Below are positions 2,111 to 34,509 of a DNA stretch of 64,000 nucleotides, one piece after another. Each line of letters starts with the position of its first letter. The stretch's first letter is position 1. The notes below the pieces were generated by a model. That model made no database searches. It was given only the letters and a program-made list of their open reading frames with translations, and was not told the origin of the DNA. Origin of the DNA: Vitis vinifera (lineage: Eukaryota > Streptophyta > Magnoliopsida > Vitales > Vitaceae); the NCBI RefSeq assembly GCF_030704535.1, contig NC_081818.1, positions 25,521,001 through 25,585,000 on the forward strand, given 5' to 3'. Position numbers and translations under genes: made by a program.

Positions 2111-5100
2111 AAACATAACCTAAATTAATTGTCTCATTAATTTATCATATTTACTATATTCCCTCGTTCTTTAAGAGATCTCATCAATACAAATAATGAA
2201 GTATAAAAAAAAATTAATTTCTCAATATTATCATTAATATAAATGTGAAAAAATAAGAATTCATTGTTTAATTTAATTCAGTCATAATCACGTTTTATAT
2301 CTTATGATCTCATTATTCTCATTGCGCTTTCGTACAAATACCCATTTGTACCCAACATGCTTTACATCTTCAGGTGTTTGGGTTATAGGTCCAAAAACTT
2401 CTCGCTTTGTTAATGAGTTTAACTCTGCCTGCATAGCTTTTTTCCATTTTGGCCAATCATTTCTATGTTGGCATTATTCCACATTTCATGGTTCAATATC
2501 TTCATCATTTCTTATGATATTGGAGGCCACTTGGAAAGCAAAAATATTGTTAATAACAATATTATTTTGATCTCATTTTTCTCCCGTGTGTACATAACTT
2601 ACTGAGATTTCACAATTTTTAGGCATTTGTGCCTTTTTAAGGGTTTCTCATTCAATATGTGCCTCTTTAAAAGCTTTTTGTTCAATATGTGCCTTTTCAG
2701 GGGCTTTCTACATTATTTGTGCCTTTTATGGGGCTATAGATTTATCAATTTTAAACTAATTAGTCATTTTGATGGCCTCTTTTAGAGTGTCGAGTTTTTC
2801 ATGGGTTTGCTTCTTCTGAAGAGTTACATCATTTGAGCCAACAAGTCTACCACGCTTTAGGTGTATCTTAGATTCATTTATTAATTATCCTACAAGGACA
2901 TCAATTCATGTTGGAGTATTTGCAGTCAAGATATATGACTTTGTCACTTTCTTTGTATCAATGAATGCATCTGGTAATTGATTTGCAAGATTTTGCAAAT
3001 AAATGATTCTTTGAACTTCTAGTTCACATTGATTTGTACAAGGATTAAGATAGGTCATAGTAGATACCTTCCAACTAATTTCTTACCGTTCTTTAGGAAT
3101 TGACTTCTCTCCCCCTAATAATGGGAAAACACTCTCATTAAAATGACAATCCGCAAACCAGGCTGTAAAAACATTGTATGTAAAAGGTTTAAGATATCTT
3201 TTCATAAATCCCAAGTCTTCGTTGGGGACTCATTTTAGTGCATTATGTAGGTACAATTGGTACATATACTGCACAACCAAAGATTCGTGAGTCAGAGATA
3301 TTTGGTTGTTTTCCAAGCACAAGTTGTGAATGAGAGTATTCATGGAAAGTTGTAGGTTGAATATGGATTAAAGTTGCAGCATGCATAATAGCATGTCCCC
3401 AGGCGGTTTTAGGTAATTTAGTATTCATTAGTAATGGTCGAGCTATTAATTAGAGACGTTTGATGAAGGATTCTACTAAACCATTTTGGGTATGAGTATG
3501 AGCAACAAGATGCTCAATATTTATCTCTACTGACTTGCAATAGTCAATGAATGTTTGATAAGTAAATTCGTTAGCATTACCAAGATGTATTGTCTTAATT
3601 GGATAATCTGGAAATTTTGTTTGTCATTTGATTATTTGTGCAAGGAGTCTAGCCAAAGCAACATTACATGTAGAAAGGAGACAAACATGTGACCATCTGG
3701 TAGAAGCATCTATTAAGATCATAAAATAATGGAATGGTCCACATGGTGGATGAATAGACTCACATATGTCCTTATGTATTCTTTCTAAAAAGACTGATGA
3801 CTCAAATATGAATTTAGTAAAAAATGGTTTGACTATCAATTTACTTTGTGAGTAAGTAGCACATGAGTATTCATTAGGCAAAAGAATCTTTTGGTTCTTT
3901 AGTGGATACCCATGTGAGTGTTCGATTATTCGACGCATCATTGAAGACCCTGGGTGACCTACTCTATCATGCCAAAGGACAAAAACTTGTGGGTCGTTGA
4001 ACTTCTAGTTCACAACAACATATGATTCAATAGGCTTTATAGTTGTATGATACAACCCAGATGAAAAAGCTGGTAGTTTTTCCATTATAAGCTTCTGGCC
4101 AAATATTAATGGAAGTAATGTAAAGATATTCTATATTATCTTCATTCATAGTTACAATATGATATCTATTTATACGAATATCTTTAAAACTAAGCAAATT
4201 TATTTTGGATTTGCTAGAATGTAGAGCGTCATTTATATGGAATCTAGATTCATTTGGTAGCTTTATGTTTGCTTTTCCAAAGCCTTCAACTAAGTTTGTA
4301 ATACCAGATATGGTACTTACATTAGCTTTTATTAATGTCAATTTGAGGAAATATCTTTTATTTCGAAGAATTGTGTGCGTGGTTGCACAGTTTGCGAGAC
4401 ATACACACCATCCTCATTCATATTGAGACCAAATAACACATGGATTTCAAATATAACTAATTGTAGACCCTGTTTGCAAACCAAGTGCTATTAGTTTTTT
4501 TATTGCTTTTATTAATAGCATTAAAGGGATATTTTCTTACCACCTGGAGGAGTTGGCAGCACCTTGGACGAGTGGGGGACCGACTTCCATGAAGCTTCAT
4601 GCATGAGACGTATAGCCTTGGACGTGACCACCTCGCCATGGTGGTGGTTGAAGCTTCAGATGATAACGGTTAGAGCAGTGGAGCGGGTAGCAACTTGCGG
4701 GAGAAAGAAGAAACAGGGGAGAGGCGAAAAACTTAAAATGGAGCAAGAGAGGTTGAAGATGGGTTCAGAGAAAAATTGGAGATAGCTTGAGGAAGAGAGG
4801 TCGAGAGCAAGAAGGAAAAGGAAGGATGGCTTGTGGAGCTCTTGCAGATCTTGAGGAGAGAACACAACTTACCCGAAGCTAAGCCAACACTGCTTGAGAA
4901 AAGTCATTCCAGGTAAAGCTATCGTGAGTTTCCGGTTCATTTCAACTATCATACTTTGCTTTTGTCTATTCTACTAGTTTTTCTTTGGATATTGTTTTGT
5001 TGTTTGCTGTGGACATCAATGGCCATAGAAGTGTTTAGCTGAATCCGGTTTGTTTGCATATAATGCTCTGTTTTAGTTTTGTTTTTAGTATTTTTTATTT

Positions 5101-5410
5101 CTCTTGTAAAGATATGATGCTTTTCCCCTTCCCTAAACATGATGTGCTAAGCTCATGTTCTTATTTTCTCTAAATCCTACTAACTTCAAGCTCTTTGACA
5201 ATCCATGACATAAAACTCAGTTCATGCTATGTTTTTTTTTATATTTTTTTCTCTTTCTTCTCCTTTCTTACTCTGTTTCTTGCTGAGTGTTGGAGATGCA
5301 TTAGGAAAGCTTGCTTGTGAACCTGTACAAACTTGGTTTGAGAGTCACTCTCAGGCTCTTCTTTCTTATCCCCTTTCCTTCTTTCAACTTTTCCACTTTC
5401 TCTCCCCAAA

Positions 5411-5940
5411 ATGGCGTCTCTGACTCCCCCTCACTACTCAATCACCGCCACTGAGATTCGCTACTGCCACCTCCACCACCGAAGAGGCCTTACGCCACGC
5501 CATTCGCTTCGCCTTCGATGGTAAGGGGATTGATTCAATGCTTCTCAAATTCTAGTCTAGGTTGTGTGAATCCGACGATTACACCTTCTTGCTTTGAGAG
5601 CTTGGCAAGTGAGAGGAGCGAGCGAGGGTCATTCAATGTTTTGAATTTGCTGTGCAGCGGGAGCAAAAGCACAACGAGCAAGGTAAATGGGTTAGTGCTA
5701 TGATTAGTATTCTAAGTAGATTAGGCCAAGTTGAACTAGCAAAAGAATGTGTTTGAAACCTCTTTAAATGAGATATATGGAAATACAGTCTACAAATTTT
5801 CGGCTCTAATTAGTGCATATGGGCGAATTGGATATTATGATGAGGCAATCAAGGTATTTGAGACTTTGAAAAGTTCGGAGTTGAAGCCAAATTTAGTTGC
5901 TTATAATGCTGTAATTGATGCGTGTAGAAAATGGGTTTGA
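5411..5940 (+). pseudogene. GUN1: GUN1 (PPR-SMR protein) gene fragment, decayed
   Basis: GUN1 is a plastid pentatricopeptide-repeat protein acting in plastid-to-nucleus signalling. The fragment opens with MASLTPPHYS, like the GUN1 start. After loss of most of the low-complexity N-terminal part it continues in another frame with EEALRHAIRF, ESDDYTFLL, FEFAVQREQKHNEQGKWV and [17 protein letters not shown]. Then follows a clean first PPR unit, [16 protein letters not shown]...[13 protein letters not shown], and homology stops at about 5,937. Several in-frame stops and at least one frame change show that it is non-functional. It covers only the N-terminal quarter or less of the usual ~860-920 residues. 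The protein match is from memory of Arabidopsis GUN1. It lies inside element E1 in plus orientation and includes a 5'-leader-like CT-rich stretch (about 5,340-5,410), so capture from genomic DNA or from an unspliced transcript are both possible. Confidence 0.82.
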
Positions 5941-6224
5941 TGCCTCCATGCATGGTTACACTAGTTATGGGACTCTTAATGGTTATGGTGGTGAGAATGG
6001 CGGTTGGGTGATGAGGTAGCAGTATGTGGCATTTGTTTTCCATCTTGTAAAAAATGGTTTTGTGGTGCTCTCTGGTAGTACATGGAGTGGGTTGAGAGTG
6101 CTAGTAGTACATGGAATGAATTTGGTTGGAACAATCTCTTGCATGGCATACATGAATGGTGGGCCACTCTTAAAATTCATGTGTCTCTTTCCTCATCCAT
6201 CTTCATGCATACTTTTTTAAAAAA

Positions 6225-7200
6225 TTGGTTTTCAAAAAAAAAAAAAAAGTTGTTTTGACTCCACAATTTTTCATCTTTAGAATTTTTAGGACCCAAATTC
6301 CATTTTCCAATAATTTTCCAAAAAATCCAATTCTTAAATTTAATTTTCAACTCCAATTTTCATTTAATTTCCAAAACTCCAATTCCCAAATAATTTTCAA
6401 AATTTCAATTTCTTTCAAATTTAACTTCCAAAATTTCAATCCTTAAACTTAAATTTTCGGATTCTCAAATAATTTTCAAAATCCCAATTTCTTTCAAAAT
6501 TAATTTCCAAAATTCCAATTTCTTTCAAATTTAATCTCTAAAATTCCAATTTCTTTCAAATTTAATTCTCAAAACTCCAATTCTTAAATTTATTTTTCAT
6601 AGTTCCGATTCTCAAATAATTTTCAAGATTCCAATTTTCATAATTTAATTTTCAAAACTCCAATTTCTTTCAAATTTAATTTAAAAAACTCCAATTCTCA
6701 ATTAATTTCCAAAATTCCAATTCTCAAACCTCCAATTCTCAAATTTAATTCCCAAAATTCCAACTTTCTAATAATTTTCAAAATTCTAATTTCTTTCAAA
6801 TTTAATTTCCAAAACTCTAGTTCTTAAATTTAATTTTTAAAACTCCAAACTGTTAAATAATTTTTGAAATTCCAATTTCTTTCAAATTTAATTTCCAAAA
6901 TTCCAATTCTTAAATTAATTTTCAAAACTCCAATTCTCAAATAATTTTTCAAACTTCCATTTTCTTTCAAAATTAATTTCCAAAACTCCAATTCTTAAAT
7001 TTAATTTTCAAAACTCTAATTCTCAAATAATTTTCAAAATTCCAGTTTCTTTCAAATTTAATTTTCAAGATTCCAATTCTCAAAATTTCAATTTTCAAAT
7101 AATTTTCCAAAATTCAAAGTTTCAAATTTAATTTTCAAAACTCTAGTTTTCTTTCAAATAATTTTAATTCCACTCCAATTTTCAAATATTTTTTCTTACA
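6225..7200. repeat. Degenerate CAATTYTCAAAT tract of element E1
   Basis: Nearly 1 kb built from loosely repeated words of the type CCAATTTCTTTCAAATTTAA and TTTTCAAAACTCCAATTCTC, with a 20-35 base periodicity and strong strand bias (C on the plus strand, few G). A related tract lies at 23,480-24,000 in element E2, so it is a family feature and not random AT-rich DNA. Confidence 0.75.
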
Positions 7201-9368
7201 ACTTTTCATCCTTTATTAGGGTTTTAAGTTGCCAAAAATCATAATTTTAATAGATTTGCTGCCATTCTCATTTTGGTATGCACTTGTACAATTTTTCTTC
7301 GATTTTTAAATTTTTTTTTTTTGTTTTCCTTGATTTTTAGTAAGCGTGAATGAATTTTTGTAACTCCAGAAACAATGGAATTTATGAGACTAATTCATGC
7401 AAGATAAATTGGGCTTTGGTGGGGACCCTACATACGAGTTTTCTGTTCTGATTGTCAACTGTTATGCTTAGAGAATATTGTTTGATTTTTGTCTTGATCT
7501 TTGATACACATGTGATATATTTTGTATTTATTTTTGTGCATTAATGTTGTTTCCATGATAGTGTATTATTATTTGCTGCCAAGGTACGATCTTACTTGCA
7601 CTTTGCTTATTCTGATGCATGATTCGCTTTATTATTTGACTATTTCATTAGTATCCATTGATTTCCTTATCCATTGTCATGTTTGCTTCACCTTACTTAG
7701 TATATACCATTTTGGGGGGCTTAGAGGTGTGATACGGTCTTTACTGTACCTTCCTAATAAATAACCTGACCCCCAAACCCAAGTTTGGTTTTTCACAAAC
7801 CGTTTTTTTCAAATGAGGAGTCACACTTAGAGTTTTCTTTCTTATTTTGTTTTCCCTTAAAAAAATAAAACAAAAAATAAGTTGCGACCTCAAGTCTTTT
7901 TCTAAAAATCATATTTTCACCGAATAAATAAAAAGTGAGTCGCACCATCAAGTAGGAACGCATCGAGCAAAATACAGGGTCCACACTAATATTAAAACAA
8001 AAAAAACAAGGCATAATGTAAATAACAAAAGAAAATCAAATGTAAATATAAAACATAATAATATATTATTTGATATATAAAGTAACATCAATCGATGTAA
8101 ATCTTCTCATCATTTATTAAATGATATGTTTTTTCACTGGGACCTCCAAAGAAATCAATGTCATAATAGGTTAGGTCCAATCCATCACTATCAATAAAGT
8201 TAATCTCTATTTCTTTTCCTTTTACTTTTATTGATGTTTTGTAAAGGTCGACCAAATGTTTGAGCGTACGACAAGTACATGACCAATGCCCCTTCATACC
8301 ATATCTATAATAAATTATTCTTATGGTTCTTAGGAGGCTTATCTTGTAAACACTTTTCATTTTCTTGTTTTACCTCAATATTGCTCCATTTTTTGTGGTG
8401 CAATGAGGCTTTCCTTTTCCGAAAATTTGATGAATTATTATCATAAGAACCATGGTATCGAGGATTTCTTCCATGACCATGACCACATTCTCGTCTTCGT
8501 CCACGTCTATGAGTTTGGAACGATATTGCATTCACTTCAAGAAATTATTCAGATCCAGTTGGACGAGATTGATGATTTCTCATCAAAAGCTCATTATTTT
8601 GTTTAGCAACAAGAAGACATGAGATTAATTCAAAATATTTTGTAAATCTAAGTTCTCGATATTGTTACTGCAATAACACATTTAAGACATGAAATGTAGT
8701 AAAAGTTTTCTCTAACATGTCTTTTTCTGTGATTTTTTTCTCCACACAACTTTAATTGAGAGCTAATTTTGAAAAGTGTGAAGTTATATTTACTAATAGT
8801 TTTAAAATCTTGCAACCTCAGGTGTATTTAATCATATCGAGCTTTTAGGAGAATCACAGTTTTCTGGTGGTCATATCTTTCCTTCAAATTACTCTATAAA
8901 GTAAAAGGATCATTTACCATAAAATACTCATTTTTTAAACCTTCATGGAGGTGATGGCGAAGGAAAATCAGTGCTTTTGCACAATCCTACAGTGATGCTT
9001 TATTTCCTTCTTTGATTGTAGCTCCAAGATTCATTGCATCAAGTTGTATTTTAGCATCAAGGATCCAAGAAAAATAGTTCTTTCCCGAAATGTCAAGTGT
9101 CACAATTTCGAGTTTTTGTGAGATTCGACATTGTCAAATAACTTCATATATATGACAAAACAATATTATTAGAATCAGTTATAATAAATTGATAGCATTG
9201 ATATAACTTTGATTATAAACAAAATCAAATAATTTGCTTATAAATTTTAAAAATATATAACAAAACAAAATCAAGAATAATATAAATATATAAAATTTTA
9301 TTCTATATAAATAACTTCAAGTTTAAGATACAAGAATTACCCTCAAAGCAATTCGTGCAGATAACGTG

Positions 9369-9753
9369 TTGGAAAATAAGAATAAATACAATGTAAATAA
9401 AGTAGTAGAGATAAATTATATATTACTTTGATAATAATATATAATAGGGAAGAAGAAATCACAAAAGAAAATTGAGAAAGTTGAGATAATGAAAGACATA
9501 AAGAATGAGAGAAAGTAAGAAACTTCTTTATTACTTAGGGATTCATATTATAGGGGATTGGAAGCCCTTTTATAAGCTTTTCAAATGACTTCCATTAATA
9601 TTCTCATTAATAAATACTAATGTTAATAAATATTAATGGAACTCATAAATAACATTAATAAGTTCCATTAATGAGTATTAATGGAAGTCATAAATAATAT
9701 TTAATTAATATTTATTATAATTAATATGGTGACATTCACTACTTCAGTCATAA
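9369..9753 (-). repeat. 5' LTR of the Ty1/copia fossil
   Basis: On the minus strand this 385-bp block starts TGTTATGACTGAAGTAGTG and ends CTTATTTTCCAACA, that is TG...CA. It directly adjoins the gag-bearing internal region. It contains a purine-rich leader and short repeated words (TTAATGGAA / TTCCATTAA). A matching 3' LTR was not found; only a TTCAGTCATAA-like word near 2,277 recalls its end, and that could be chance. Confidence 0.65.
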
Positions 9754-11544
9754 CACTTTTCAAATTTTAATTAAGAAAATAATTATATATATATATATAA
9801 AATAAAATATCAACTTTCCAAAAATTTATTTAGAAAAAAAAGAATTTTCTTAAAAAATAAAATCTCAAAATTTTCAAAAATTAATGAAAACATTTTAGTT
9901 CAATTTTAAAACTTCAAATTCAATTCTATTTTATTAAAAAAATTAATTTACTTTTAACAAATCTTTTTAAACTTACATGTGACAACTCAGATAAATGAAC
10001 AATAATCTCAAGTCTTCAATGGAGAATAAGTTATCATCTAAAAAGATTCTAAATCATTATAAAAAATAAAATAAAATTTTTAATATATAAAAATGTATTA
10101 ACATAATCAATCATACTTTCAAGGAACAATGGTTTGAAAGATCTTCTAATATCAATCTTAAGACTTGAATTTGAACAAAACTTCAAAATCAAAGCCCACC
10201 TCATTTATTTTATTTATTCATGGTTGGTCCATTATCATTCACCATGGCGCAGCCGCATAATCCACCGTAAAGACACGGCTCCTCATGGATGAAAAGGCCA
10301 TGGATTGGATTGAAAAAAAAAAAAAAAACAGCTCTTTAAATTTTGGTAAAAAAAGAGGAATTTATTTTTTTCAATCAACAAATGATTTAAGGAAAACAAA
10401 AACTTGGTAGAAACAAACAAGTTCTTAAAAGAATTCATTTTTTGCTTGTAAAATTATCAAGATTTTCTACTCTTCATCACTATTCTTTATGTGATTTTCA
10501 TACAATTTACGGAGCTTTTGGTCGTCGGACCTCACTCCAAGCCTATTTGTCCTAACTCTTCCTATATTCAACTTTTTCTGAAATCAAGTCTCGTCATTTC
10601 TCTTCAAATTGATAAATGATAGTTTTTTCATTAATAATTTTTTTTCATTCGTTCATGTATAGAGTATATATAGAGGGTAATCGTCATTCTAAAAATGGGA
10701 AAGAATGATATAAGGAAATAACAACTAATATCTCAATATCTCAACTTTCCTAATATCTCAATATTCCTAATATCTCAACTTTCCTAATATTTAAGCATTC
10801 CTAATATCTCAACACTAAATGATATAAGGAAAGAATGATATAAGGAAAGCATTCCTAATATCTCAACAATTTCGAGCGGAAACGCATGTGAAAGATCCAT
10901 ATTTCTTTATTTGAAGAAATTTATGTCCACGGTTTGATATTTTTTTTAGAAAATATTAATAACAAATTTTTATAAAAGAAATAAAATGTTAACATATGTT
11001 TTCAAAGTTTTATTTTCTATAAGGTAGAAGTAAAACTATAGGAAAGAATTTGTTGTCCTAATAAAATTCACTTCATAATTATCATCATCTCATAGAAATA
11101 AAACTGATTTGATTTACAAGGTGTCTAAATTGAAGTATCCAAAGAGGCACGGATTGTTTTTTTTTTTTTCCTAAAAAATAAAAATAATATAACTTTTTTT
11201 TCTTAATAAACTTTTTAGAATATTTTGAACAACGTGATAAATACTTCTAAAATTTTTATATTATATATAAATATAGAATACCCTTATTGAAAATTAAAAA
11301 GAGAATTACTTTTTATATTTAACTTTCTAAACATAATTTTATCCTTAAAAATAATTATTTTTAAGAAATATTGTCAAAAAAAAAATTTTAGGATTGTCAT
11401 AAAAAATATATACTAAATATGGCCATTTTTCTCATTTTAATTTTCATAACTTAAATTTCCATCACCATAAGTTTATTGTAATTAAGAATTCCTTTTAAGA
11501 AATACATTTTTTTTTTTTTGCCATTCCTCTTAATTAAATTGTTA

Positions 11545-11790
11545 GAATAGGGGAAATAAGAGAAAAAAAAATAAAGAAAAAAAATAGAAGGAAAGGAAAA
11601 AAAAAAATTAAATTAAATAAATTATTTTTATATATTATTTCAAAAAAATTATTTTTTTATTTAATTCTTTTATATAAAGATTAAATAATTTAAAATTATA
11701 CTAATCTTTTAATAATTTTAATTATATTTAATTTTCTTTCACATTTTTAAAAAAAAAAACTAAAAATGACAAATTCTTTTCTTGGGCAAT
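11545..11790. repeat. AT-rich dispersed repeat, copy 2
   Basis: Same orientation as 1,842-2,110. Both run from an A/G-rich stretch through AATAAATTATTTTTATAT to ATAAAGATTAAATAATTTAAA and TTTTAATTATAT. Low complexity makes exact ends uncertain. Confidence 0.45.
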
Positions 11791-11970
11791 TTATTTTCCT
11801 TTCCCGATACGTTTCGGTTATCATTTAGCTTAAAAGAAATACTTGTGAATGCGTTTTGTTTATTTTTTTAGAACTATTATAAGTTACATTACGAAATAGC
11901 CGTATCAATAATTAGATTCATTCCCGCATATGGAATGAAAAAGGAAAATGTTATTTTTTAAATGAGGAAA

Positions 11971-11978
<8 letters not shown>

Positions 11979-12012
<34 letters not shown>
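11979..12012. repeat. (AT)n microsatellite
   Basis: A pure AT dinucleotide run of about 17 units, ~260 bp upstream of the ALS start codon. Similar (AT)n runs occur at about 2,008-2,029, 26,263-26,306, 34,473-34,505 and 34,664-34,682. Confidence 0.9.
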
Positions 12013-12016
<4 letters not shown>

Positions 12017-12207
12017 GACAAACAGAGATGTGAATATGGGAAAGCATCTCGTGAAAAGTGACGTGGTTCGTTTATATTCTTGAATCAAAGCTTTACATGG
12101 GCGGGCGGATCTCTGAGGCAACAACTTACGGTGTTATTTTCTACCCAAACCAAAAGGAAAGGTCCATGGGCTGTTTTGTAATTTTAGGCTTCCATATGCT
12201 GTAAGCC

Positions 12208-12273
12208 TATAAGACGACGTCTTTCACTCCAGAAAACCCTGCTAACTGAACTCTCCCCATCTACAATTCAACA
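12208..12273 (+). promoter_or_regulatory. Putative ALS core promoter and short leader
   Basis: A weak TATA-like TATAAG lies at 12,208-12,213, overlapping GACGACGTC (12,213-12,221). A CT-rich leader then runs to the ATG at 12,274. The TATA assignment is tentative because the leader would be only about 30-40 bases. Confidence 0.35.
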
Positions 12274-14268
12274 ATGGCGTCTACCGCCGCCAGCGCCGCT
12301 GCAAATCTCTCCATCTCCAAACCCTCTCCGACGCTTTCCTTCCAGTCGCTGACATCCCATTCCAGGCTTATCCTTCCCGGTTCTAAGGCAAAAATCACTG
12401 TCTCTGTCGCTCACCGCATCACGGCCTCTCTCTCTGATCCCAAACCCAAACCCTCATCTGCCGTTTCTGCCTCCATCTCCACCGCCGCCCCTGTGGCCAC
12501 ATCGTCGGAGACCTTCATTTCCAGATTTGCCCCCGACGAGCCCCGGAAGGGCTGCGATGTTCTCGTGGAAGCTCTCGAGCGGGAGGGCGTGAAACACGTA
12601 TTCGCATATCCAGGTGGCGCCTCCATGGAGATCCATCAAGCCTTGACTCGCTCCAACATCATCCGAAATGTGTTGCCGAGACACGAGCAAGGCGGCGTCT
12701 TTGCCGCTGAAGGCTACGCCCGCGCGTCCGGTCGTCCTGGGGTTTGCATCGCCACCTCTGGACCTGGCGCCACCAATCTCGTGAGCGGCCTCGCGGATGC
12801 ATTGCTTGATAGCATCCCAATCGTGGCGATTACTGGTCAGGTCCCTCGAAGGATGATTGGTACCGATGCTTTTCAAGAGACCCCAATTGTGGAGGTAACT
12901 CGATCGATTACGAAGCACAATTATTTGGTTCTTGATGTTGAAGACATTCCTCACATTGTGAGAGAAGCGTTTTTCCTTGCAACTTCAGGCCGACCAGGTC
13001 CAGTTTTGATTGATGTACCCAAAGATATACAACAGCAGCTCGTGGTTCCGAATTGGAACAAGGGACTTCGGCTGCCCGGGTACACATTTAGACTTCCCAA
13101 GTCGCCTGAAAAGGCCCATTTAGAACAGATTGTGCGGTTAATTTCAGAGTCAAAGAGGCCGGTTCTGTATGTTGGTGGAGGCTGTATGAACTCAAGTGAA
13201 GAGTTAAAGCGGTTTGTTGATCTTACTGGTATACCAGTGGCGAGTACTTTAATGGGTCTTGGTGCGTTCCCTTGCACAGACAAACTATCTCTTCAAATGC
13301 TCGGTATGCACGGGACTATGTATGCCAATTATGCTGTGGACAGGTCCGATTTGTTGCTGGCATTTGGTGTCAGGTTTGATGATCGTGTGACTGGTAAAAT
13401 TGAAGCTTTTGCCAGCAGAGCTAAGATTGTTCATATCGACATTGATCCAGCCGAGATTGGGAAGAACAAGCAACCCCATGTTTCAGTTTGCGCGGATGTG
13501 AAGCAGGCGTTAACAGGGATGAACAGCTTATTGGAGGAGACTGGAGCAAAGTCTAAGTACGATTTCTCATCCTGGAGGGACGAACTTAATGAGCAGAAAG
13601 CAAAATATCCATTAAGTTTTAAAACATTTGGAGAAGCCATTCCTCCACAGTATGCTATCCAAGTTTTGGATGAACTGACCGATGGTAATGCAATAATTAG
13701 CAGTGGTGTTGGGCAACATCAGATGTGGGCTGCCCAATTTTACAAGTATAGGGGACCTCGTCAGTGGCTGTCCTCCAGCGGATTAGGTGCTATGGGTTTT
13801 GGGCTGCCTGCTGCCATGGGTGCTGCAGTTGCCAAACCTGATGCAGTTGTAGTTGACATTGATGGCGACGGAAGCTTTATAATGAATGTCCAGGAGTTGG
13901 CTACTATTCGGGTGGAAAATCTTCCAGTTAAGATTATGTTATTGAATAACCAGCATCTGGGTATGGTTGTTCAGTGGGAGGATCGGTTCTATAAGGCTAA
14001 CAGGGCTCACACATATTTGGGGAACCCCTCTAATGAGGCTGAAATATTTCCCAACATGTTGAAGTTTGCTGAAGCCTGTGATATACCTGCTGCAAGAGTG
14101 ACGAAGAAGTCGGAGGTTAGAGAGGCAATCAAAAAGATGTTGGAGACTCCAGGACCATACTTGCTGGATGTGATTGTACCTCATCAAGAGCATGTGCTGC
14201 CTATGATTCCGAGCGGTGGGGCTTTCAAAGATGCGATCAATGAGGGTGATGGAAGAGAAGCATACTGA
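12274..14268 (+). CDS. ALS: Acetolactate synthase (acetohydroxyacid synthase), catalytic subunit, plastid
   Basis: It makes 2-acetolactate or 2-aceto-2-hydroxybutyrate from pyruvate (plus 2-oxobutyrate), the first common step of valine, leucine and isoleucine synthesis, in plastids, with TPP, FAD and Mg2+. The 664-residue protein is full length (Arabidopsis 670) and intronless, as usual for plant ALS. Residues 1 to about 80 are a Ser/Ala-rich transit peptide. The TPP-binding N domain follows ([14 protein letters not shown], catalytic Glu138 in RHEQGG), then the central domain, then the TPP pyrophosphate domain with GDGSFIMN...LLNN. The positions where herbicide resistance arises are all the sensitive type: Ala116, Pro191, Ala199, Asp370, Arg371, Trp568, Ser647, Gly648 (Arabidopsis 122, 197, 205, 376, 377, 574, 653, 654). 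The start is the first ATG after the CT-rich leader and gives the complete transit peptide. Confidence 0.98.
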
Positions 14269-17200
14269 TGATCTTGTTGCATCCAATGTGTTAGCATAAT
14301 AGTACTGGTTCTATGTATATGTAGTGCATTTGCAGCTGAGGCAATGTAGTTTTCTTGGTTGGTTCTTTTACTAGGTACGAGTTGCTACTCTGGTAGACTG
14401 TACTAGGTATTTATATTTCTCTTTATCTGTTTAAAATTTGGTTTTGAAGGTTTTTAGACTTCAGAAGCTATTTCGCCTTATTTTTTGTTTCATCGATAGC
14501 AACTTATAATTTCTTAGATTCATGTGGATCTTAAACGCATTGTTCTGCATCATTCCTCTATGATTGATGTCCCTCTAGTACCCTACCTTCGAAGATGCAC
14601 ACATTTAAAGTTGTGGGGGGTGTGAGAAGAATTTAAAATAGGTCTGTTTGGTAAATCAAGTAGAAAAAGAACTTCCCCTTGATTTCTTCCAGGGTACTAG
14701 AGCCAACTTAAGAGCATGGAAGAGTTCTTCCAGGGTAGGCTGTTTCAAGGCTAAAAGGCTGATAGAAAGGATGTGAACTGCGAAGGTGGAAAAGCACTTG
14801 TCGGATGAGATAGGAGCCCTTGTGCAGGACCACACATGTTGGTGCGATACTTATAGGCCACACATATTGTTGCTGCAGCAATGATACAACCAAAATTTCA
14901 TGGTAGAGATTAAGCAGTGTCAGCTATTATCTGCTTTGCAAATTGGATGGGACCGACAAGTGGCTACAGTGCTAGCGGCCATAATGGACTCTGAAATATG
15001 TATCTTTTTTTGTTGTATTAGATGAATCCTGGATGGAGCTACCGGCCAGGCCCATGGATAGGACATAGTTGCAGCCCAAAAATAGATAGCTCCCAAGCTC
15101 GACATCTAAGCCTAGGCAAGCACTCGGGCTGGATCCAGGTCCTTCAGGGCTCGGGCTAGGCTGGAGATTCAATCCTCAGCTTAGTCCCAAGAATTTAGCA
15201 CAATCTGATTATTTTGTTTCATAAAACATGCGGCAATGCATTACATGCATCGTAACTTTCGAACGTACAAAATTTGAAGGAGCTATGTTTTACTTTTAGG
15301 GATCTTGTCTCGAGCTAGCTTTTGGATCGGGAATGGGCTTTGGCACGAAATTGTCCGGGCAAGATGGGCTGGGTCAGGCTGGGATTCTGTCTGAATTTCT
15401 CAGGTTACAACCCTAATAAACCTGTGGGCCTGGCCAGACTCAAATCTGGACACTACCAGTAGCCTGTTTTGTAACAATTTGAAGGATTAGTTTTAGTTTT
15501 AGTTTTAAACCTTTTAGTCGAGTGAATATGAATATTTTCAGCTGTTCTTTCTGACGCGTAGTGTCGGTTAAGGACGCTCTGTGCAACACTGAATCTACAT
15601 TTACTAATCCGACAATTTCAATTTCAAATCATGCCAAGTTGAAAACATAAGGATGGTCTCTAATTCAATGAGACCTCATTTAAAACTCACGTTTCCAGGA
15701 AAGCAAAGCTTTATTTCCTTTATTTTGTTGCAAGGATTTGAAAGACATGGTATGGTTACAGTTGAGCTTTGCTGATCCAGTTTGGTGCCTTAATTTGCAG
15801 AATGAATCCTCTATTATTTAACTTTTTTGTTATGGTTCAATTAAATTCAGAAGCTCATGGTAATATAACAGAATTTGGGTTCACAATTAACACATTACTG
15901 TCATACAATGATGAAATTGTTATATAAAAATCTTTAAAGTTACAAGTAATAAAATGAAAATCAAGATCGTACCTTCAATCATGGCAATCAGATTCACACA
16001 AAATATGGATTAATTGGTTAGTCCTTAAAAGACCTTATGTTCATGCATCGATGATACTCACAAATTTATTCTTATAAACCAGAGATCATTTTTTTTCGAT
16101 AGATATTCTCTTTTTTTTCTTCTTTCCATAAGACATAGGATAGTTTTCAACTTATGTCTTTATAAACATGAGTGGTTACTCCATAAGAGATGTAATCCTA
16201 CGTTTCATTTATTTTAGGAAAAATAATATTTAAATTGATACAATTTAAAAAAAAAATTATTTTATTTTATTTTATTAAAATACAAAATGGTTTGGAACAA
16301 AAATATGTACAGAAGGATTGGACTGAATCAAATGTTTGTTTAGGTAGATTGACAAGAAATTGTCTATTTTGATTTTTAAAAATTACATAATTCTCTATCC
16401 CATTAGCTAGGTTAAAATTCCTACGAAATTAGAAGCCAATTATTCTATGATAAGAAAAGGATAGGCACGTATCCTTTTAATTCCCCTTCACGACGTCTTG
16501 CTTTTACACTACATGACATTCTTATTAGACTATGGTTATTGGCTACCAAAAGGCTCGTGCCCTTTTTCTGTAGCATCACCCACAACTCTAGGAAGAACAG
16601 GCCATGTGTCATTCCTTTATTCACGTACATAAGTGTCACCGTGCGGCTAATAATGATATTCCCATTAATTTGTGGTGCCTTAACGAAGAAAGCCCACCAC
16701 CATGATTAACAGGGGCGCCATGATGAAAGCGACTGCTGCGGGTTAACGTTTAGTGCAATGTGGGATTGGAGATGAAGATTTCTAGAATGAGCCCAATGTG
16801 CTCAAAGAGCTGTTTGAGTTGGACACATTGTCTTGTCTCTACAAGAGCTATTGTGACGCCAGAATCCTTTGCACAGCATTGCAAGAGCTTGTCGTAGCTA
16901 ACAAGGCGTATCTTTTCTGATGAACCTCTTCGCTCGTCTGATAAGATATCCATGACAAAAAAATTCTGACATTATATAGGTTTGAATTTCTGATAAGTTT
17001 AAAGTCGCGAGCATCCCATTGGCTTGGGCTCTGAACGGATAATATCTGAATAATGTTTGCTGTACTTTTCCATCAAAGGTTTCACATGTAGAATTGATCC
17101 ACTTTTAGGCCACAAAACTAGCACTCGCCTGCAAATTACGTAGGAGGAAGTTGTTGTCAGCTGAGGCATTTCAGATCGCAACCCAGCATCTGAAACTCAA

Positions 17201-18640
17201 AAGGGCCTCTCCCACGCTCAACACCCAAGCTACAAAGACCTTCTAACTTTGATGTTCACTGAAGAACCGAGCAAAAAAAAAAAGGCAATGCATTCCCTTG
17301 GATGAGATCTATATGATCATGGTTTAGTCCCTTTAGAACAAAGTCCATGTGTTGGTGGGCCATTTTGTTGGGTCTGGGAGGGAACTCACCCACCATAACC
17401 AAATTACTTTCCCACCTTTCCTTCACATTTTCTAGGTGAAAAAAGAGGGAAAAGAGCCCTACAATTTGATTCTCTGCCATTTTAGAGAAATAAAAAATTC
17501 AAATTTCTAAAATGAAATGCACACTCAAATTCTAATAAAGAAAGAAAAAGAGGGAATCAGCTAGATTAGTCTTCCAAACTTTACCTGGCCCATTGAGGAC
17601 AGACATCAAACTATTGAAACATAAATGCACAACAACATTTGTGGAATGCCAAAAGGAGAATCTTTGTATAGAAAAGCATTTTTCATCTCAACAATCAGTG
17701 AGAATTTGGATTGTTTAGGACTTAACCAACACTTGGACCATGACATTATCCCTTCTTGTTAGTTGTTCTTCTTCCCAGTAGAATATATTCCAATCTCTCG
17801 TGGCACCAAAACCAAGCTGAGAACAATTGGTTTAGTGATGGATGAGACATTTTTTAATCATCATGGACAATTATAAATCCTTCTTGTATTAAAAAAATCC
17901 CATGTCGTTTTGTCGTCTTGGCATTTTAGCTCAGGCGATGGCAAGATGACAAGTCGCAACGTTTGAAATGATCATCAGAATGAGTGATATGACCAAAAGA
18001 CATGCCCTGCGTTTGACCACTTCCTTCTCTGATTTATATATAGGAAAATAGTAATAAATTTTTTGAAAGAAATTGAAATACCCAGAAGTTGCAACTTGTA
18101 AAACAAATCTTTTTAAAGAATGGATTCAATAAATGTCACAAAATCCAACTTTGTAAAAGAAGTAGAAAGATGCAGAATGGCCCCATAGCAGGGGTGAAAG
18201 AACAGAGCAGAAAGTCCCATTAAGGACATGTAATGGCACCAATGGCCATCCTGATATTATACAGAGAGGATGCTGCAACAATTGCGGTGGGTGACATGGC
18301 TGTTGCAGATGGTGAAGACATCTGCAGGTACTAGGGCAATTAATGGTACAGGCTAATTCAATCTCACACCCAGTCATTCTTAGAAATTTAATAGGAAAAA
18401 ATTACAATTATAGAAAAAGTTGAATTTATACAAATTATTTAGGAAATCACTATCATTGTCTTTTATAATAAAAATCATCCAAAAATAAATAAAAAATTGT
18501 GCTATCTTTCTATATCCACGTAGATATTATTTATCCAATTTTGTTTAATAATTAATTTTATATTTTGATTTTAGCGGAAAATAAGGGAGATTACATTTTA
18601 TTATTTTGACAAAGTAGAAGGAGAGAGATTCTTAGGAAGC
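14269..18640. other. Intergenic region between ALS and GXM
   Basis: The ALS 3' region comes first, then mixed sequence with no convincing gene. A patch at about 15,050-15,450 is rich in GGGCT/CAGGC words and looks repeat-derived. Several 60-75 residue open frames on the minus strand at 16,445-17,480 are the best gene-like signals, but none has a recognised domain or a clear exon chain. Confidence 0.45.
16750..16953 (-). CDS. Unassigned 67-residue open frame (doubtful gene fragment)
   Basis: The frame starts MDILSDERRG and contains KLLQCCAKDSGVTIALVE and LKQLFEHIGLILEI, which reads like real, mildly amphipathic protein and not low-complexity translation. Neighbouring minus-strand frames (16,999-17,181 with RRVLVLWPKSGSILHV, after a good ...TTTGCAG acceptor-like word; 17,256-17,480 starting MAENQIVGLF) might be other exons, but I cannot join them with confidence. 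No family recognised. It may be a decayed gene or chance. Confidence 0.2.
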   Translation of the reverse strand: MDILSDERRGSSEKIRLVSYDKLLQCCAKDSGVTIALVETRQCVQLKQLFEHIGLILEIFISNPTLH

Positions 18641-18652
18641 CATTTGAGAGGG

Positions 18653-18660
18653 TGACGTCA
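18653..18660. promoter_or_regulatory. TGACGTCA palindrome upstream of GXM
   Basis: A perfect bZIP-type (CRE/C-box-like) palindrome ~190 bp upstream of the GXM start codon. Its function is inferred only from the motif. A TATA-rich stretch (about 18,735-18,765) and a GA-repeat leader (about 18,823-18,846) lie between it and the ATG. Confidence 0.4.
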
Positions 18661-18846
18661 TCTAATCACAATTATAATTTGAAACTGTAGTTTACAAGAG
18701 GGTGGTCCACTCTAATTAGGGATTATTATCTCTTTCTATTATTATATATCTAAATATTTTATATTAACACCCCCAAAGACTAAAAGATTTGGAGATTTCT
18801 CTTATTCTCATCTCTACAGTTTTGAGAGAGAGAGAAAGAGGGAGAG

Positions 18847-19695
18847 ATGAAGAATCGCCGAGTTCTTTTCGAGAGGCCGTGGCTACTCACCGTAGTGATT
18901 GGCGGTATGATCGGCGCGGCTATTCTCATCAACAGCTTCGGCCGAACGTCCAGCAACTCTCTCTTGTGTTCCTTCTCCGGCGCTTATACGAGACCCGACC
19001 ACTCCGATGACTCAGTGGCGCAGACGCAGCTCATCGCCATTCTCCATTACGCAACATCTAGAGTGGTTCCGCAGCAATCTCTGGCGGAGATCAGAGTCTC
19101 GTTCGACGTCCTCCAATCTCTCGCTCCCTGCAACTTCTTGGTCTACGGGCTCGGCCACGATTCTGTTATGTGGTCCTCCTTCAACCCAAAAGGCACCACC
19201 ATCTTCCTCGAAGAAGATCCCAAGTGGGTTCAGACTGTACTAAAACAAGCCCCTAACTTGCTAGCCCACACCGTCCGCTATCGTACGCACCTCTCCGAGG
19301 CGGATCAGCTTCTCCGCTCCTACAAATCGGAACCCGCTTGCTTGCCCCCTGACGTCCGCCTCCGCGACAACACTGCGTGTAGGTTAGCGCTGACCGGTTT
19401 GCCGGAGGAGGTGTACGATACGGAGTGGGATTTGATAATGATAGATGCGCCGAGGGGATATTTTCCCGAGGCGCCTGGGCGGATGGGAGCGATCTTCACG
19501 GCGGCGGTTATGGCGAGGGCGAGAAAACGCCAGGGCGTAACTCACGTATTTCTTCACGACGTTAACAGGAGGATCGAGAAGGTGTATGCTGAAGAGTTTC
19601 TGTGTAAAAAGAATTTGGTGAAGGCTGAAGGGAGGCTTTGGCACTTTGCGATTCCGTCGGCGGCCAATGATACGATGAACTCCGCCTTTTGCTAA
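18847..19695 (+). CDS. GXM: Glucuronoxylan 4-O-methyltransferase (DUF579 family)
   Basis: It transfers a methyl group from S-adenosylmethionine to O-4 of glucuronic acid side chains of xylan in the Golgi during secondary-wall formation. The 282-residue intronless protein is of normal family length. It is a type II membrane protein: a short basic N-terminus, one membrane segment (about residues 12-31), a stem, then the DUF579 domain. Family motifs visible are NFLVYGLGHDSVMWSSFNPKG (97-116, SAM-binding loop), IFLEED (119-124), WDLIMIDAPRGYFPEAPGRM (194-213) and HVFLHDVNRRIE (233-244). It resembles GXM1-3 more than IRX15, which is usually longer. An ATG 58 bases upstream lies in another frame and gives nonsense, so 18,847 is the start. 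The leader is a GA repeat. Confidence 0.9.
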   Translation: MKNRRVLFERPWLLTVVIGGMIGAAILINSFGRTSSNSLLCSFSGAYTRPDHSDDSVAQTQLIAILHYATSRVVPQQSLAEIRVSFDVLQSLAPCNFLVYGLGHDSVMWSSFNPKGTTIFLEEDPKWVQTVLKQAPNLLAHTVRYRTHLSEADQLLRSYKSEPACLPPDVRLRDNTACRLALTGLPEEVYDTEWDLIMIDAPRGYFPEAPGRMGAIFTAAVMARARKRQGVTHVFLHDVNRRIEKVYAEEFLCKKNLVKAEGRLWHFAIPSAANDTMNSAFC

Positions 19696-20037
19696 AGATG
19701 TTTCTGACTAAATCTAGTACTTTTTATTTTTCTTTTTCTTTTTTAATTTAAAAATTCTTAGATAGTTTTTTTTTTTTTTTTAATTTCAAAAGTTTTTTTT
19801 TAATTTTACATTGGAGATGTTAGTTGATATAAAGAATAAAGTTTTGTGAATTTCTAATTTTTATTTTATATAAAAGGAGTGAAATGAATGGCTTATAGAT
19901 GCAATTCTGGGCAATTCCCTTATTTTGGAAAGGAATGGGTAGTAGGAAGAGTCCCCGTATGAATTTGTCTACAAACTTCTGAAAAGGAGTGAGGTGTAGG
20001 TGAATATCCCAAACCCCTACAACCAATTAAAGTATGA

Positions 20038-20499
20038 GTTTGGGGTGCATGCTTTGCTATTCAACAGACGGCCCTACCATTCAATGATAAAAAAATTTAT
20101 TTCTTATGTAACAAGATATGTACAAAAATCCAAATACATACCAAGCTTGAAGTATTCGGTACGGATTCTTACAAGCTTCTATTTAAAATTATGCCAAATT
20201 TGAAAAAATTACCGAAGGATTTTTAATAAAAATTTTAAATATCACGTTGGAATTTATGCCTAAAATCAAGCTTCTCACATTTTCCTTTTATTTTTTGTTT
20301 TTTTTTTTAATTTTAATAAGTGAAGCATTTTCTACCTCACCCGTTATTTGATTAAAATGGTTATTGAAAATTCAAAATTTAAAATTTAACCCTTCATGAT
20401 ATTTTGACATCATTTGGACAAAAATACTTTTATTATTTTCTTATAAAAATAATCAACTCTTTTAAATCTTACATATAAATACTAAATATAGAAGAGTTA
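20038..20499 (+). repeat. 0.5-kb duplicated segment, copy A
   Basis: From GTTTGGGGTGCATGCTTTGC to GAAGAGTTA this segment is repeated, in the same orientation, at 24,053-24,598. Most of the first 200 bases are identical. Small insertions in copy B (for example a doubled AAAATTATCAAAGGATTAT word) account for the length difference. No coding frame. Copy A ends exactly at the MITE at 20,500. Confidence 0.85.
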
Positions 20500-20776
20500 G
20501 GTGGTGTTTGTTTTTTTGGCTTTTTGCTGAAAACCATTTAGTTTTAGAATTTAAGTTGTTTGTTTTTTTACTTTTTCATGACTTATTATAAACTTTTTAC
20601 TAAATAGAAAAAGCCAAAATATGTGGCTTTTTCTAAATAGAAAAAATAACACAATGGTTTTTTTTACTTTTTAATACTTAATAGAAATAAAATACTACAA
20701 AAACAAACAACCTAATATTTAATACTATTAAGTATTAAGGTTCTATTTAGAATTAAGTAAAAAAACAAACACCACC
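20500..20776. mobile_element. Tourist-like (PIF/Harbinger) MITE, TTA target duplication
   Basis: 277 bp with terminal inverted repeats starting GGTGGTGTTTG and ending CAAACACCACC, flanked by TTA on both sides (20,497-20,499 and 20,777-20,779). This matches Tourist MITEs, which duplicate TWA trinucleotides. The interior has further inverted words (GGCTTTTT / AAAAAGCC) and no coding capacity. Same family as 22,305-22,525. Confidence 0.88.
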
Positions 20777-22131
20777 TTAGTGTATACCCCTTTTTTTTTA
20801 CAAACCAAAGGTTCTTAGTTTTTTTATTATTGTTTTGCTGGCTTTCCTTAAGAAGCCGGGGAGCATTTTCAGTGAGGGTGGGGGGGACCTCCCATAGAGC
20901 TCCATGCAAGGACGTGTGGTGATCCTTCAGCAGCCGGCCCATGACGGTGGTTGAGGATGGAGATTGATGAGGGGTGCACAGGAAAGCAGGTAGAAGGCTG
21001 ACAGGAGAAAGATATTTTTTCGGAGGGGGAGTTTCTGGTGGGGGGCAGGAGATATTGAGAGTTGGAGAAGAACAGGAAAATGGAGGAAAAGGAAAAAAAC
21101 GAGTAAGGAAGTTGTTGATGGCAAAATTCTGACGTAGCAATTGCAGCTACCAGAAACGGAGTTTGGATCAACGCATGAATAAATCCTTCCTTCCTCCTGC
21201 AAAAAAGATGTCCGGACGGGTTGTCCGGGCATCTCCTCCGATGCCTCAGTTAGTATTTAGGAAGTTGTTTGAAAGCAATTGCGGGAGTGTTCCTCCACGA
21301 TGTTTCTATTGCTTACCTCCTGAGAATTACCTTCAAGCTTATATATAAGGCAGAGAAGGTGTATTTGCTGGGCTAGCAGGTCCCATCGTCATGATTACGG
21401 CTCATAAGGTGGCGAAGTAATCATGACGTTTTTGGTGCGAGATGGCAGTTGTCAGGAGGATATTTAGGCGGTTCCACCGCCTCAATAAATATCGGGGATG
21501 TGTCAAGAGACCTGAGAAGACTTGGGAATGTTTTGTCGAATGTATCTTGCATTGAATATGCGTGACAGTTCAGAAGACTTGGTCGTCAGTGTTGTCAGAG
21601 TTATCTTTTTTATTGTGGGCCGAAATGGATCCGACGAATCGCGAGTGTCTGACGAGCCAAGCTGTCCGGTTAAGCGTTACTGGAGGATCCGTACATGTCT
21701 GTCCGGGGAAGTTGAATCGTCATCCTCTCCCATTCGGCGACAGGCGCCGGATGTGAGATATCCGAATAGGGTAGAACGTTGGCCGGATAGAATGGCGGAG
21801 GTGAAACATCCGGGTGGAATGAGCGATGACTTCCGTCCGGGTGGAACGAGTTATGTCACGCGTCGCAAGACGGACGTCTGCGTGTCCAAGAGAGAGGAAG
21901 CCACGTGGCAGTTTTTAGGGAGGATCCCACAGAAGTAAGCGAGGAGCCTGAGGGGATTGGACCAGAGGGGAGAGCTTTTACAGAGAGAACGAGGGACAGA
22001 GGAGAGTTTGCTGGAAGCCAAGCCACTTTTGCTCGAAGGGAATCACTCAGGCAACAACCAGTACCTCCAGTCTGAAATCACTTTTGCTTTCTGATCGAAG
22101 GGGAAGGCTTACGTCACAGCGCCTTCCATTA

Positions 22132-22277
22132 CGCTTAAAGGTTTCTTGTGCTGCAAAACCAGAGACGGTGGAGAAGGTGTGCCATTGTCAAGAAACAACT
22201 TGCATTACCAGAGGACTCTGCAATTATTGGTGAATAAAAAATTTGCAGCGCTTGGAACTGATTCTCTTGATACGGTA
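22132..22277 (+). pseudogene. ACP: Plastid acyl carrier protein (ACP) gene fragment, decayed
   Basis: ACP carries growing acyl chains in plastid fatty-acid synthesis. The plus strand reads RLKVSCAAKPETVEKVC, then in a shifted frame IVKKQLALPEDSAIIGE and, after an in-frame stop, KFAALGTDSLDTV. That is the mature N-terminus up to and including the DSL motif whose serine bears phosphopantetheine. About 45 of the usual ~80-residue mature protein remain. One frameshift after KVC and one stop before KFAAL make it non-coding. Sequence beyond DSLDT reads GTATTTG, which could be an intron donor, so the piece may come from genomic DNA and not from mRNA; that depends on the donor gene's intron position, which I cannot check. 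Confidence 0.82.
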
Positions 22278-22304
22278 TTTGACAATTATCCATAAGTACA
22301 CTAA

Positions 22305-22525
22305 GGTGGTGTTTGTTTTTTGGCTGAATAGAAAAAACCAAATATTTTGGCTTTTTCTATTCAGCTAAAAGTAACTTATTGACATCAACCAACATCATTG
22401 AACTAAACTTATTGATAATAAGCTCACTTTATCTATGTTGGATAGTTTTAACAAGTTACTTTTAGCTGAATAACAAAAACCAAAATATTTAATTTTTTCT
22501 ATTAAGCCAAAAAAAAAACACCACC
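22305..22525. mobile_element. Tourist-like (PIF/Harbinger) MITE, TAA target duplication
   Basis: 221 bp with ends GGTGGTGTTTGTTTTTTGGCT and ...AGCCAAAAAAAAAACACCACC, flanked by TAA (22,302-22,304 and 22,526-22,528). Long inverted arms (for example TTTAGCTGAATA against TATTCAGCTAAA) make it nearly one hairpin. It lies inside element E2, just after the ACP fragment. Confidence 0.88.
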
Positions 22526-22871
22526 TAACTGTTTTCCTTGAGCTATTTTCTATGAAACATCCATCCTTATGTAATCATGATGGTTCTTTCTCTGGCTGGT
22601 TGAATGAAATGTATTACCCACTATTTTTTATTTTTTATTTTTTGCCATGTCTATTGTCAAATTCATACTGTCAATTGCTTCCTCTTGATTTTTTTAAGCA
22701 ACAATGTGAGGTAGTCAAGAAGAAATAGGAAGACTGGATTTTCTAATTCACTTTGTTGCTCCTCCAAAATAGCATATCTTAACCATTAAAACAGTTTGGC
22801 TTTCTTCTCTCTAGAAATTGCTGGCATGCACGTGCTATTCCAAATTTTCAGTTTAGTGGATCTTCAAGGAA

Positions 22872-22980
22872 GCAATGGTCTTTATTGACTTACAAAAGGT
22901 ATATTATAGGTTATTTAAGCACATTGGTGTGGATGTGCTCCAGAAACGTGGAGTACTAGTTGAGTTATATCTTGAGGCTT
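22872..22980 (+). mobile_element. LINE reverse-transcriptase scrap
   Basis: The plus strand encodes MVFIDLQKVYYRL followed by VLQKRGVLVELY. This matches the plant LINE reverse-transcriptase signature (vFiDLeKAYDrv ... VLxKkGv) with the catalytic-region Asp of the DLxKAYD word replaced in part. Only ~35 residues are left. It is short, so confidence is moderate. Confidence 0.5.
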
Positions 22981-23479
22981 TTAGTGGAAGCTAGCTACCT
23001 AATGGCTAAAGCTTTTGGATTAAAATGGTAGTTTAATTTTGGTATTAAAGCCTTCATGTGTGATAGGAAGCTACGTGTAAAAAAATGTTAGGATATTAGC
23101 CTAATTGTTGGTTGGCTTAATATATACTTTGTTTATTGATTATAGGCTTTTAGGTCAAAATGGTAGTTTTAACATTAAAATTTAATTTCCAATCACGATA
23201 CATTTTCACATTTTCACTGTATAGTTGTTTATGCTTCCTGTCAATCAATATATAGTTAATTGTGCTTATATTAGAAGTGATTTCAAGGCTTAGGGAGATG
23301 CTTGTGCCTCAGTATTAAAAGGTTTCAGAAATGCATTATATTGTCCTTTAAAAAAAAAACAAAAAAACTTTGTGGTGCCTTTATTTTTTTTTATTTGTTT
23401 ATTCCTTAAATGACATGCTATACACGTTGCCAGGCCATTTCTTCTTTTTATTATTTTCTTAGTTCTCTCCAACTTTTAA

Positions 23480-24000
23480 TGCCAAAGACTTCATTTTCAA
23501 AACTTTAATTGTAAACTCCAATTTTAATTTGATTTTTCAAAGCTACAATTTTAATTTAATTTTTCAAAAACTCCCATTTTTAAAAATTCAATTTTTAAAA
23601 CATTGACTTCCCAAATTTTAATTATTTTCAAATTTTATTTTTAAAAATCTCAATCATTAAAATTCAATTTTTCAAAAATCTGACTTTTGAATTTAATTTT
23701 CAATCTCAAAAATTTCACTATTCACGTTCATTCATTTAAACATTATTTTTGTTATTATTATTATTATTATTTTATATTTATTTATTTATTTATTTTAAAA
23801 ATTCAAATCATTAAAGTTCAATTCTTGAAAAATCTGACTTTCGAATTTAATTTTCAATCTAAAAAATTCCACTATTCACGTTCATTCGTTTAAATATTAT
23901 TTTCATTATTATTATTATTATTATTCTATTCATTTATTTTACAAATTCCAATAATTAAAGTTCAATTTTTCAAAATTCCGTTTTTCAAATTTAATTTAAT
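23480..24000. repeat. Degenerate CAATTTTCAAA tract of element E2
   Basis: Words such as CTCCAATTTTAATTTGATTTTTCAAA recur, with an internal ~140-base duplication (CTGACTTTTGAATTTAATTTTCAATC at about 23,681 against CTGACTTTCGAATTTAATTTTCAATC at about 23,836). It is the counterpart of 6,225-7,200 and contains TTA trinucleotide runs. Confidence 0.7.
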
Positions 24001-24052
24001 TATCCCAATGTAAAAGAGTTGAATAATTTAATTATCAAAAGCATAGACGTCG

Positions 24053-34465: not shown

Positions 34466-34509
<44 letters not shown>

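Follow-up and report, generated by a model that had tools for sequence, protein, structure and literature searches.

Host gene pieces in the long terminal repeats of a grapevine retrotransposon family point to capture from RNA

The stretch of Vitis vinifera DNA analysed here (the window, 64,000 nt of NC_081818.1) holds two related sequences on its plus strand, E1 at 4462..7985 and E2 at 20781..24052, each of which carries a fragment of a host gene. A preliminary description had read E1 as a complete non-autonomous element and had taken the absence of gag and pol as a sign of non-autonomy. Comparison with the host assembly (495.6 Mb, 21 contigs) revises this: E1 proves to be a solo long terminal repeat (LTR), with E2 representing part of a related one, and gag and pol are indeed absent, because the unit is just an LTR. 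Here we describe the family to which both belong, the host gene pieces that its LTRs contain, and the evidence pointing to capture of these pieces at the RNA level.

E1 is 3524 bp long, runs from TGTAGACCCTG to CAGGGTCCACA with TG...CA ends, and stands between two copies of CTAAT (4457..4461 and 7986..7990), a 5-bp target site duplication (TSD); its relatives adjoin sites resembling a primer binding site (PBS) or a polypurine tract (PPT). The LTR-type ends and 5-bp duplication that had been proposed for both sequences were confirmed for E1, and a self-comparison of the window found no match to the E1 3' end within E2. The first 339 bp of E1 (4462..4800) form a 5' end common to the family. A search of the host genome with this segment, as had been suggested, gave at least 41 matches including E1 itself (best 40 of 212 candidates scored), and 20 of the 40 non-self matches were retrieved for comparison. 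Further into E1 is a splice-donor-like site, CAG|GTAAAG (4910..4915), at which an exon would end at 4912 (donor 4912/4913). The host fragment, on the plus strand at 5342..5935, comprises the 5' untranslated region (UTR), start codon and N-terminal coding sequence of a pentatricopeptide repeat (PPR) gene; it matches Pfam PPR models and is 89-93% identical in DNA to its parent on host contig C7, of which about 280 bp are missing internally. We take this gene to be GUN1. The segment at 4991..5314, past the donor, is LTR-family sequence and not GUN1, since parts of 4800-5314 match at least 38 other places at 68-85% (best 40 of 80 candidates scored), and none of these 38 runs on into GUN1. The captured piece is followed on the plus strand by sequence that recurs elsewhere in the genome (5985..6270), a degenerate CAATTTTCAAA tract (6295..7195) and the LTR 3' end (7222..7985), which is U5-like by position and whose 764 bp were matched in 16 of the 20 retrieved stretches. 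In L044, too, a GUN1 piece precedes the tract; a glycosyltransferase-like piece seen there by eye found no support in a Pfam scan and was not counted.

E2 is the 5' part of a related LTR, recognised by homology to the start of E1; its own 3' end was not found in the window. The first ~330 bases of the two align with a local score of 129, where 300 dinucleotide shuffles gave 39.9 +/- 7.5 and at most 71, and the CAATTTTCAAA tract is present in E2 at 23480..24050, so both of these reported resemblances stand. A GAAGC-AAGCC block, likewise reported as shared, is weak when taken alone (cross score 28, equalled by L023) but sits right before the splice junction described below. The fragment in E2 comes from an acyl carrier protein (ACP) gene on contig C14 (89-92% identity). 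Comparison with this parent assigns 22051..22152 and 22153..22274 to two of its exons, presumably exons 2 and 3 of the ACP gene, and the parental intron between them is missing. A PDB search with one exon of the parent hit chloroplast ACP (E = 1.1e-8); one with a single frame of the E2 piece returned nothing meaningful. The presence of GUN1-like and ACP fragments, both in plus orientation, is borne out by their parents.

The 20 retrieved matches cover 142-355 bp of the E1 5' end (at least 190 bp in 19 of them), and about 1.1-1.8 kb of the E1 3' part is common to 14; L037 and L039 match just 0.3-0.4 kb of that part, and L029, L034, L038 and L040 gave no match to it. The middles between these common ends are mostly unique. 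Similar middles are found in L021/L022 and L029/L030, each pair belonging to one element, and in the siblings L028/L035; 1 kb of middle is common to L031 and L033 at 95%, and shorter stretches are common among L021/L022/L034, L026/L031, L026/L034 and L027/L040. The LTR is modular: its 5' end is common, its middle is hypervariable, and its tract and U5-like 3' end are again common. Five copies (L022, L028, L029, L032 and L038) are preceded by a PPT-like sequence ending in gggcatatt, and two (L021 and L030) are followed by the PBS-like AAATGGCGACTCC or a close variant. Two pairs read as two-LTR elements, L021/L022 at a distance of 13.6 kb with a Kimura two-parameter divergence (K2P) of 0.073, and L030/L029 at 21 kb with a K2P of 0.089 over the first 2.5 kb. 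The LTRs are very long (2.6-5.4 kb across ten measured units), and perfect 5-bp TSDs were found in six of ten units scored (E1, L023, L026, L027, L039 and L043). Among 26 internal open reading frames (ORFs) there was one Retrotrans_gag match (E = 3.1e-5) and one weak Gag_p24_C match (E = 0.004), and a domain scan of seven longer ones gave nothing. The family is probably of the Ty3 type and, judging from its LTR end, may belong to the Tat/Ogre lineage of the Ty3 superfamily. When IMG/VR was scanned for a degenerate pattern of the LTR ends, there were 0 matches. About 2.7 kb into L038 lies an open frame that by eye resembles the reverse transcriptase of a Ty1/copia element and might mark a nested insertion.

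Host domains were sought in 18 insertions, namely E1, E2 and 16 of 18 retrieved (L032 and L035 left out), the second LTRs L022 and L030 not being counted as separate insertions. Pfam was run on 146 of 155 listed sense ORFs of at least 44 aa (the other nine being five in L033, two in E2 and single ones in L021 and L025) and on 130 of 130 listed antisense ORFs, a scan that is blind to short or UTR pieces. Three of these insertions, L034, L038 and L040, have no detected 3' LTR end, and the part scanned may extend beyond the LTR. Host genes were recognisable in 10 of the 18 insertions, 12 genes altogether and 12 of 12 in sense: the PPR gene, ACP, apyrase, DHHC, SAUR, RFC, cyclin, ACCA, HSP70, a methyltransferase, PYL and a homeodomain gene. 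That members of the family hold different host gene pieces, as the preliminary description had supposed, is seen here; its other suggestion, that plastid proteins are the common thread, fails, as other LTRs hold cyclin, homeodomain, abscisic acid (ABA)-receptor (PYL) and RFC pieces. The sense ORFs matched 14 Pfam models, equivalent to ten host genes (DHHC, GDA1_CD39, homeodomain models, ACCA, PPR models, HSP70, Methyltransf_16, Auxin_inducible, Polyketide_cyc2 for PYL, and Cyclin_N). The sole antisense match was to plastid psaA/psaB, in L040 (L040:2661-2999, E = 2.5e-29), one of the copies lacking a detected 3' LTR end. PDB searches confirmed RFC (E = 6.8e-7) and identified PYL as PYL5 (E = 3.2e-30); the methyltransferase piece, a lysine-methyltransferase, was confirmed by its parent on C4, and ACP by its own.

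Both two-LTR elements that were checked (2/2) carry the same pieces in their two LTRs, apyrase in one, HSP70 and lysine-methyltransferase in the other. Two host gene pieces lie within a single LTR in L027 and in L029. Pieces of ACP, GUN1, RFC, DHHC, homeodomain, HSP70, cyclin and ACCA are also found elsewhere together with adjoining LTR sequence; C8:3701938, considered as the RFC parent, turned out to be another LTR. Stretches of L026 and L029 match C18:2521856 and C18:18413573, respectively.

Parental exons and introns were delimited by sequence matches and GT-AG borders, without annotation. By this measure eight canonical introns are missing in four captures: one of ACP, between the two exons in E2; two of DHHC in L023 (98 bp and 2.67 kb); three of the homeodomain gene in L037; and two of ACCA in L027. 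Six of the eight junctions are exact and two are compatible, L037 and L027 each having one that shows substitutions in the last three bases. Because these four captures are without eight canonical introns, the sequences indicate that capture took place at the RNA level. The boundaries of the pieces are most fully displayed by PYL, where L036, which has the piece, can be set against its relative L051, which does not, and where both junctions fall at microhomologies of 7-8 nt. The 5' junction falls within AACCCCAC, which is present in both the LTR and the gene and whose first base lies 28 nt beyond that of a TATA-like box recognised by eye; the 3' junction lies in GCCAACA; and between these microhomologies the PYL piece stands in place of about 296 bp of LTR. 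An internal jump in L023 occurred at a 9-nt repeat, and RFC-bearing and RFC-free LTRs, when compared with each other, diverge in an ACC repeat. The GUN1, PYL and DHHC pieces have their starts within the 5'UTR or close to it, and the homeodomain piece starts upstream of its matched coding part; starts near the 5'UTR would be expected if a polymerase had run toward the mRNA 5' end.

The ACP piece differs in how it begins. E2, L043 and L049 read ...CTCAG|GCAACAAC where the parent reads ...GAGCAG|GCAACAAC, a hybrid junction between LTR exon and ACP exon that in E2 falls at 22050..22051 on the plus strand. These three copies are siblings and hence stand for one event. At the same position three of four ACP-free relatives have GT, reading |GTTTAAC (L045 and L048) or |GTATGACC (L047). 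The fourth, L046, leaves its relatives at the splice-donor position and runs into another sequence, in which Pfam found nothing and which is possibly another spliced host exon. Between 300 and 500 bp of the LTR, in 18 copies (E2, L022, L030 and L035 left out), 8 donor-like sites score at least 9 against 0.39 expected and 1 antisense, and 10 reach a threshold of 8 against 1.8 expected and 2 antisense, figures obtained with hand-entered donor weights and for an interval picked after inspection. One LTR donor-intron segment also has 15 same-strand matches at 18.89-19.90 Mb of contig C18, in an arrangement that looks like a tandem array.

We consider it likely that the middle of the LTR acts as a slot for captured pieces, which came in through template switching and, in the case of E2, through splicing from a donor within the LTR. 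According to this model, pieces of host transcripts would enter the LTR middle during reverse transcription. The polymerase would quit the element RNA at a short microhomology, copy a packaged host transcript in sense, often toward its 5' end, and then return to the element RNA, with the result that the piece would be copied into both LTRs and inherited. We infer the packaging of host mRNA and the order of these steps. By a second route, suggested for E2, the element transcript would be spliced from a donor near the LTR 5' end to a host exon acceptor, after which a template switch would be needed on the 3' side only. The captured middle would lie in U3, a label given by position, and the donor may have been kept because it is used.

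Several observations weigh against this reading. With respect to the family itself, L035 and L037 have TSDs that agree at 4 of 5 bases, L025 and L031 have none, and neither reverse transcriptase nor integrase was found in sense ORFs of at least 60 aa across ~12.5 kb of internal sequence. As to the pieces, 8 of the 18 scanned insertions show no host domain in ORFs of at least 44 aa, the GDA1_CD39, Auxin_inducible and Polyketide_cyc2 matches fall just under the Pfam curated cut-offs, the RFC piece matches Pfam AAA weakly (E = 0.0051), and no RFC parent was found among the best 40 candidates scored. PYL is the only capture for which a capture-free relative and a parent together give both junctions, and E2 keeps one further ACP intron (22275..23338). 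The E2 piece begins at what its sequence suggests to be the parent's exon acceptor; the hybrid join is fixed within 3 nt only, because CAG is common to both sides; L046 has no GT at the donor position, its sequence being different there; a donor-like site is present in the interval in only 9 of 19 copies, at a threshold of 7.5 or 8; and the 2.5 kb upstream of the ACP piece yielded no LTR relic on either strand.

Some of these points bear on whether splicing is needed at all. It might well be that template switching alone filled the LTRs, with E2 a single accident and the donor-like site no more than a normal component of an LTR intron, and we regard this as only a little short of an even prospect. 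For PYL, DHHC and GUN1 the captured piece begins within or close to a 5'UTR and not at an exon acceptor, just one hybrid splice junction from one event is known to us, and about half of the copies are without a donor-like site in the interval. Set against this are the excess of donor-like sites at the threshold of 8 and the departure of L046, at the same place, into another sequence. If splicing from the LTR is nonetheless recurrent, a bolder possibility, which we hold only tentatively, is that the LTR has evolved into an exon trap in which the recurrent donor lets transcripts from the 3' LTR splice into neighbouring host genes. Were that so, the family would repeatedly renew its regulatory region with host exons and 5'UTRs, perhaps escaping homology-based silencing.

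Capture at the DNA level, whether Pack-MULE- or Helitron-like or through gap repair or gene conversion inside LTRs, could account for the ACP intron kept in E2, and many middles remain unexplained. We judge it very improbable in view of the LTR ends, 5-bp TSDs and PBS- or PPT-like neighbours, the loss of canonical introns in all four multi-exon parents read across introns, and the single orientation of the pieces. The comparison with Pack-MULEs made in the preliminary description is apt for the outcome and does not extend to the mechanism, capture here appearing to be RNA-based; a Pack-MULE or other terminal inverted repeat element was rejected on account of the 5-bp (not 9-bp) TSDs and LTR context. 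Least probable of all is that the pieces are processed pseudogenes, retrocopies of the long interspersed nuclear element type that landed later in LTRs, which would explain the introns missing in four captures but not the same pieces in both LTRs of two elements (2/2 checked), their recurrence elsewhere with adjoining LTR sequence, the sense orientation of all recognised pieces, or the replacement by PYL of ~296 bp of LTR between microhomologies, which is not a simple insertion.

Gene capture by LTR elements is already known. Retroviral oncogene capture via readthrough or splicing produces a chimeric RNA on one side and involves an illegitimate switch on the other, whereas here the carrier is a plant retrotransposon with the piece in its LTR. 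LTR-mediated retroposition by microsimilarity-guided template switching was reportedly described by Tan et al. in 2016. Excerpts of papers on this process describe intronless pieces of host mRNA in LTR elements, with junctions at short similarities (PMC5408686, PMC8232201). The grapevine family resembles it in the removal of introns (four captures, eight introns) and in microsimilarity (PYL, on both sides, in one capture), and differs in having the pieces within the LTR itself, flanked by conserved ends and in many members of one family, and in the splice-donor-like site present in part of the LTRs. Bs1 of maize is an LTR retrotransposon with pieces of three host genes (PMC2774510, PMC13317346), and in excerpts of a maize survey no LTR element is reported to combine pieces from two or more standard nuclear genes. 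As far as these excerpts go, Bs1 and the gene-carrying maize elements are likewise LTR retrotransposons with host gene pieces, the pieces are not described as lying in LTRs, and here L027 and L029 have two per LTR. In BARE-2 abnormal template switching also altered the LTR, the incoming sequence being, according to the excerpt, another retrotransposon and not a host gene (PMC13317346). Gene-carrying terminal-repeat retrotransposons in miniature (TRIM elements) are described with intronless exons, a 5-bp TSD and further copies of the capturing element; unlike in the family described here, the whole elements measure 1,172-1,449 bp and carry the captured piece in their internal region (PMC4717578). 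Assignment of the grapevine family to TRIMs (about 1.5 kb or less) was rejected, its LTRs alone being 2.6-5.4 kb.

In the excerpts of open-licence literature covered by our search, no family with captures inside the LTR or with a recurrent LTR splice donor is described. Host gene capture by LTR elements has mostly been reported as scattered cases, and here at least a dozen genes are represented in the LTRs of one family. A piece captured in an LTR is doubled in a new element, can stay behind as a solo LTR and, by its position, sits in the regulatory region of the element. A single genome here offers capture-free relatives, parents and junctions side by side, which makes the steps of RNA capture directly readable and the role of splicing testable.

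E2 has been altered by later insertions. An 819-bp solo LTR with TSD GAAGT is nested at 21113..21931, and a miniature inverted-repeat transposable element (MITE) at 22305-22525 interrupts the retained ACP intron. The sibling L043, itself a 2.6-kb solo LTR whose TSD is GGTAC, has neither. Another MITE, also a later insertion and with TTA at either side, adjoins the E2 5' end at 20500..20776. Direct duplicates at 80% (20038-20491 and 24053-24532) flank E2, and the right-hand one reads AGAAGAGTTAG|GTTCAC at 24585, which looks like an empty site of E2. Elsewhere in the window, an open frame at 12250-14268 appears by eye to encode acetolactate synthase, and a palindrome of ~880 bp at 34136-35013 is 89% identical to its own reverse complement.

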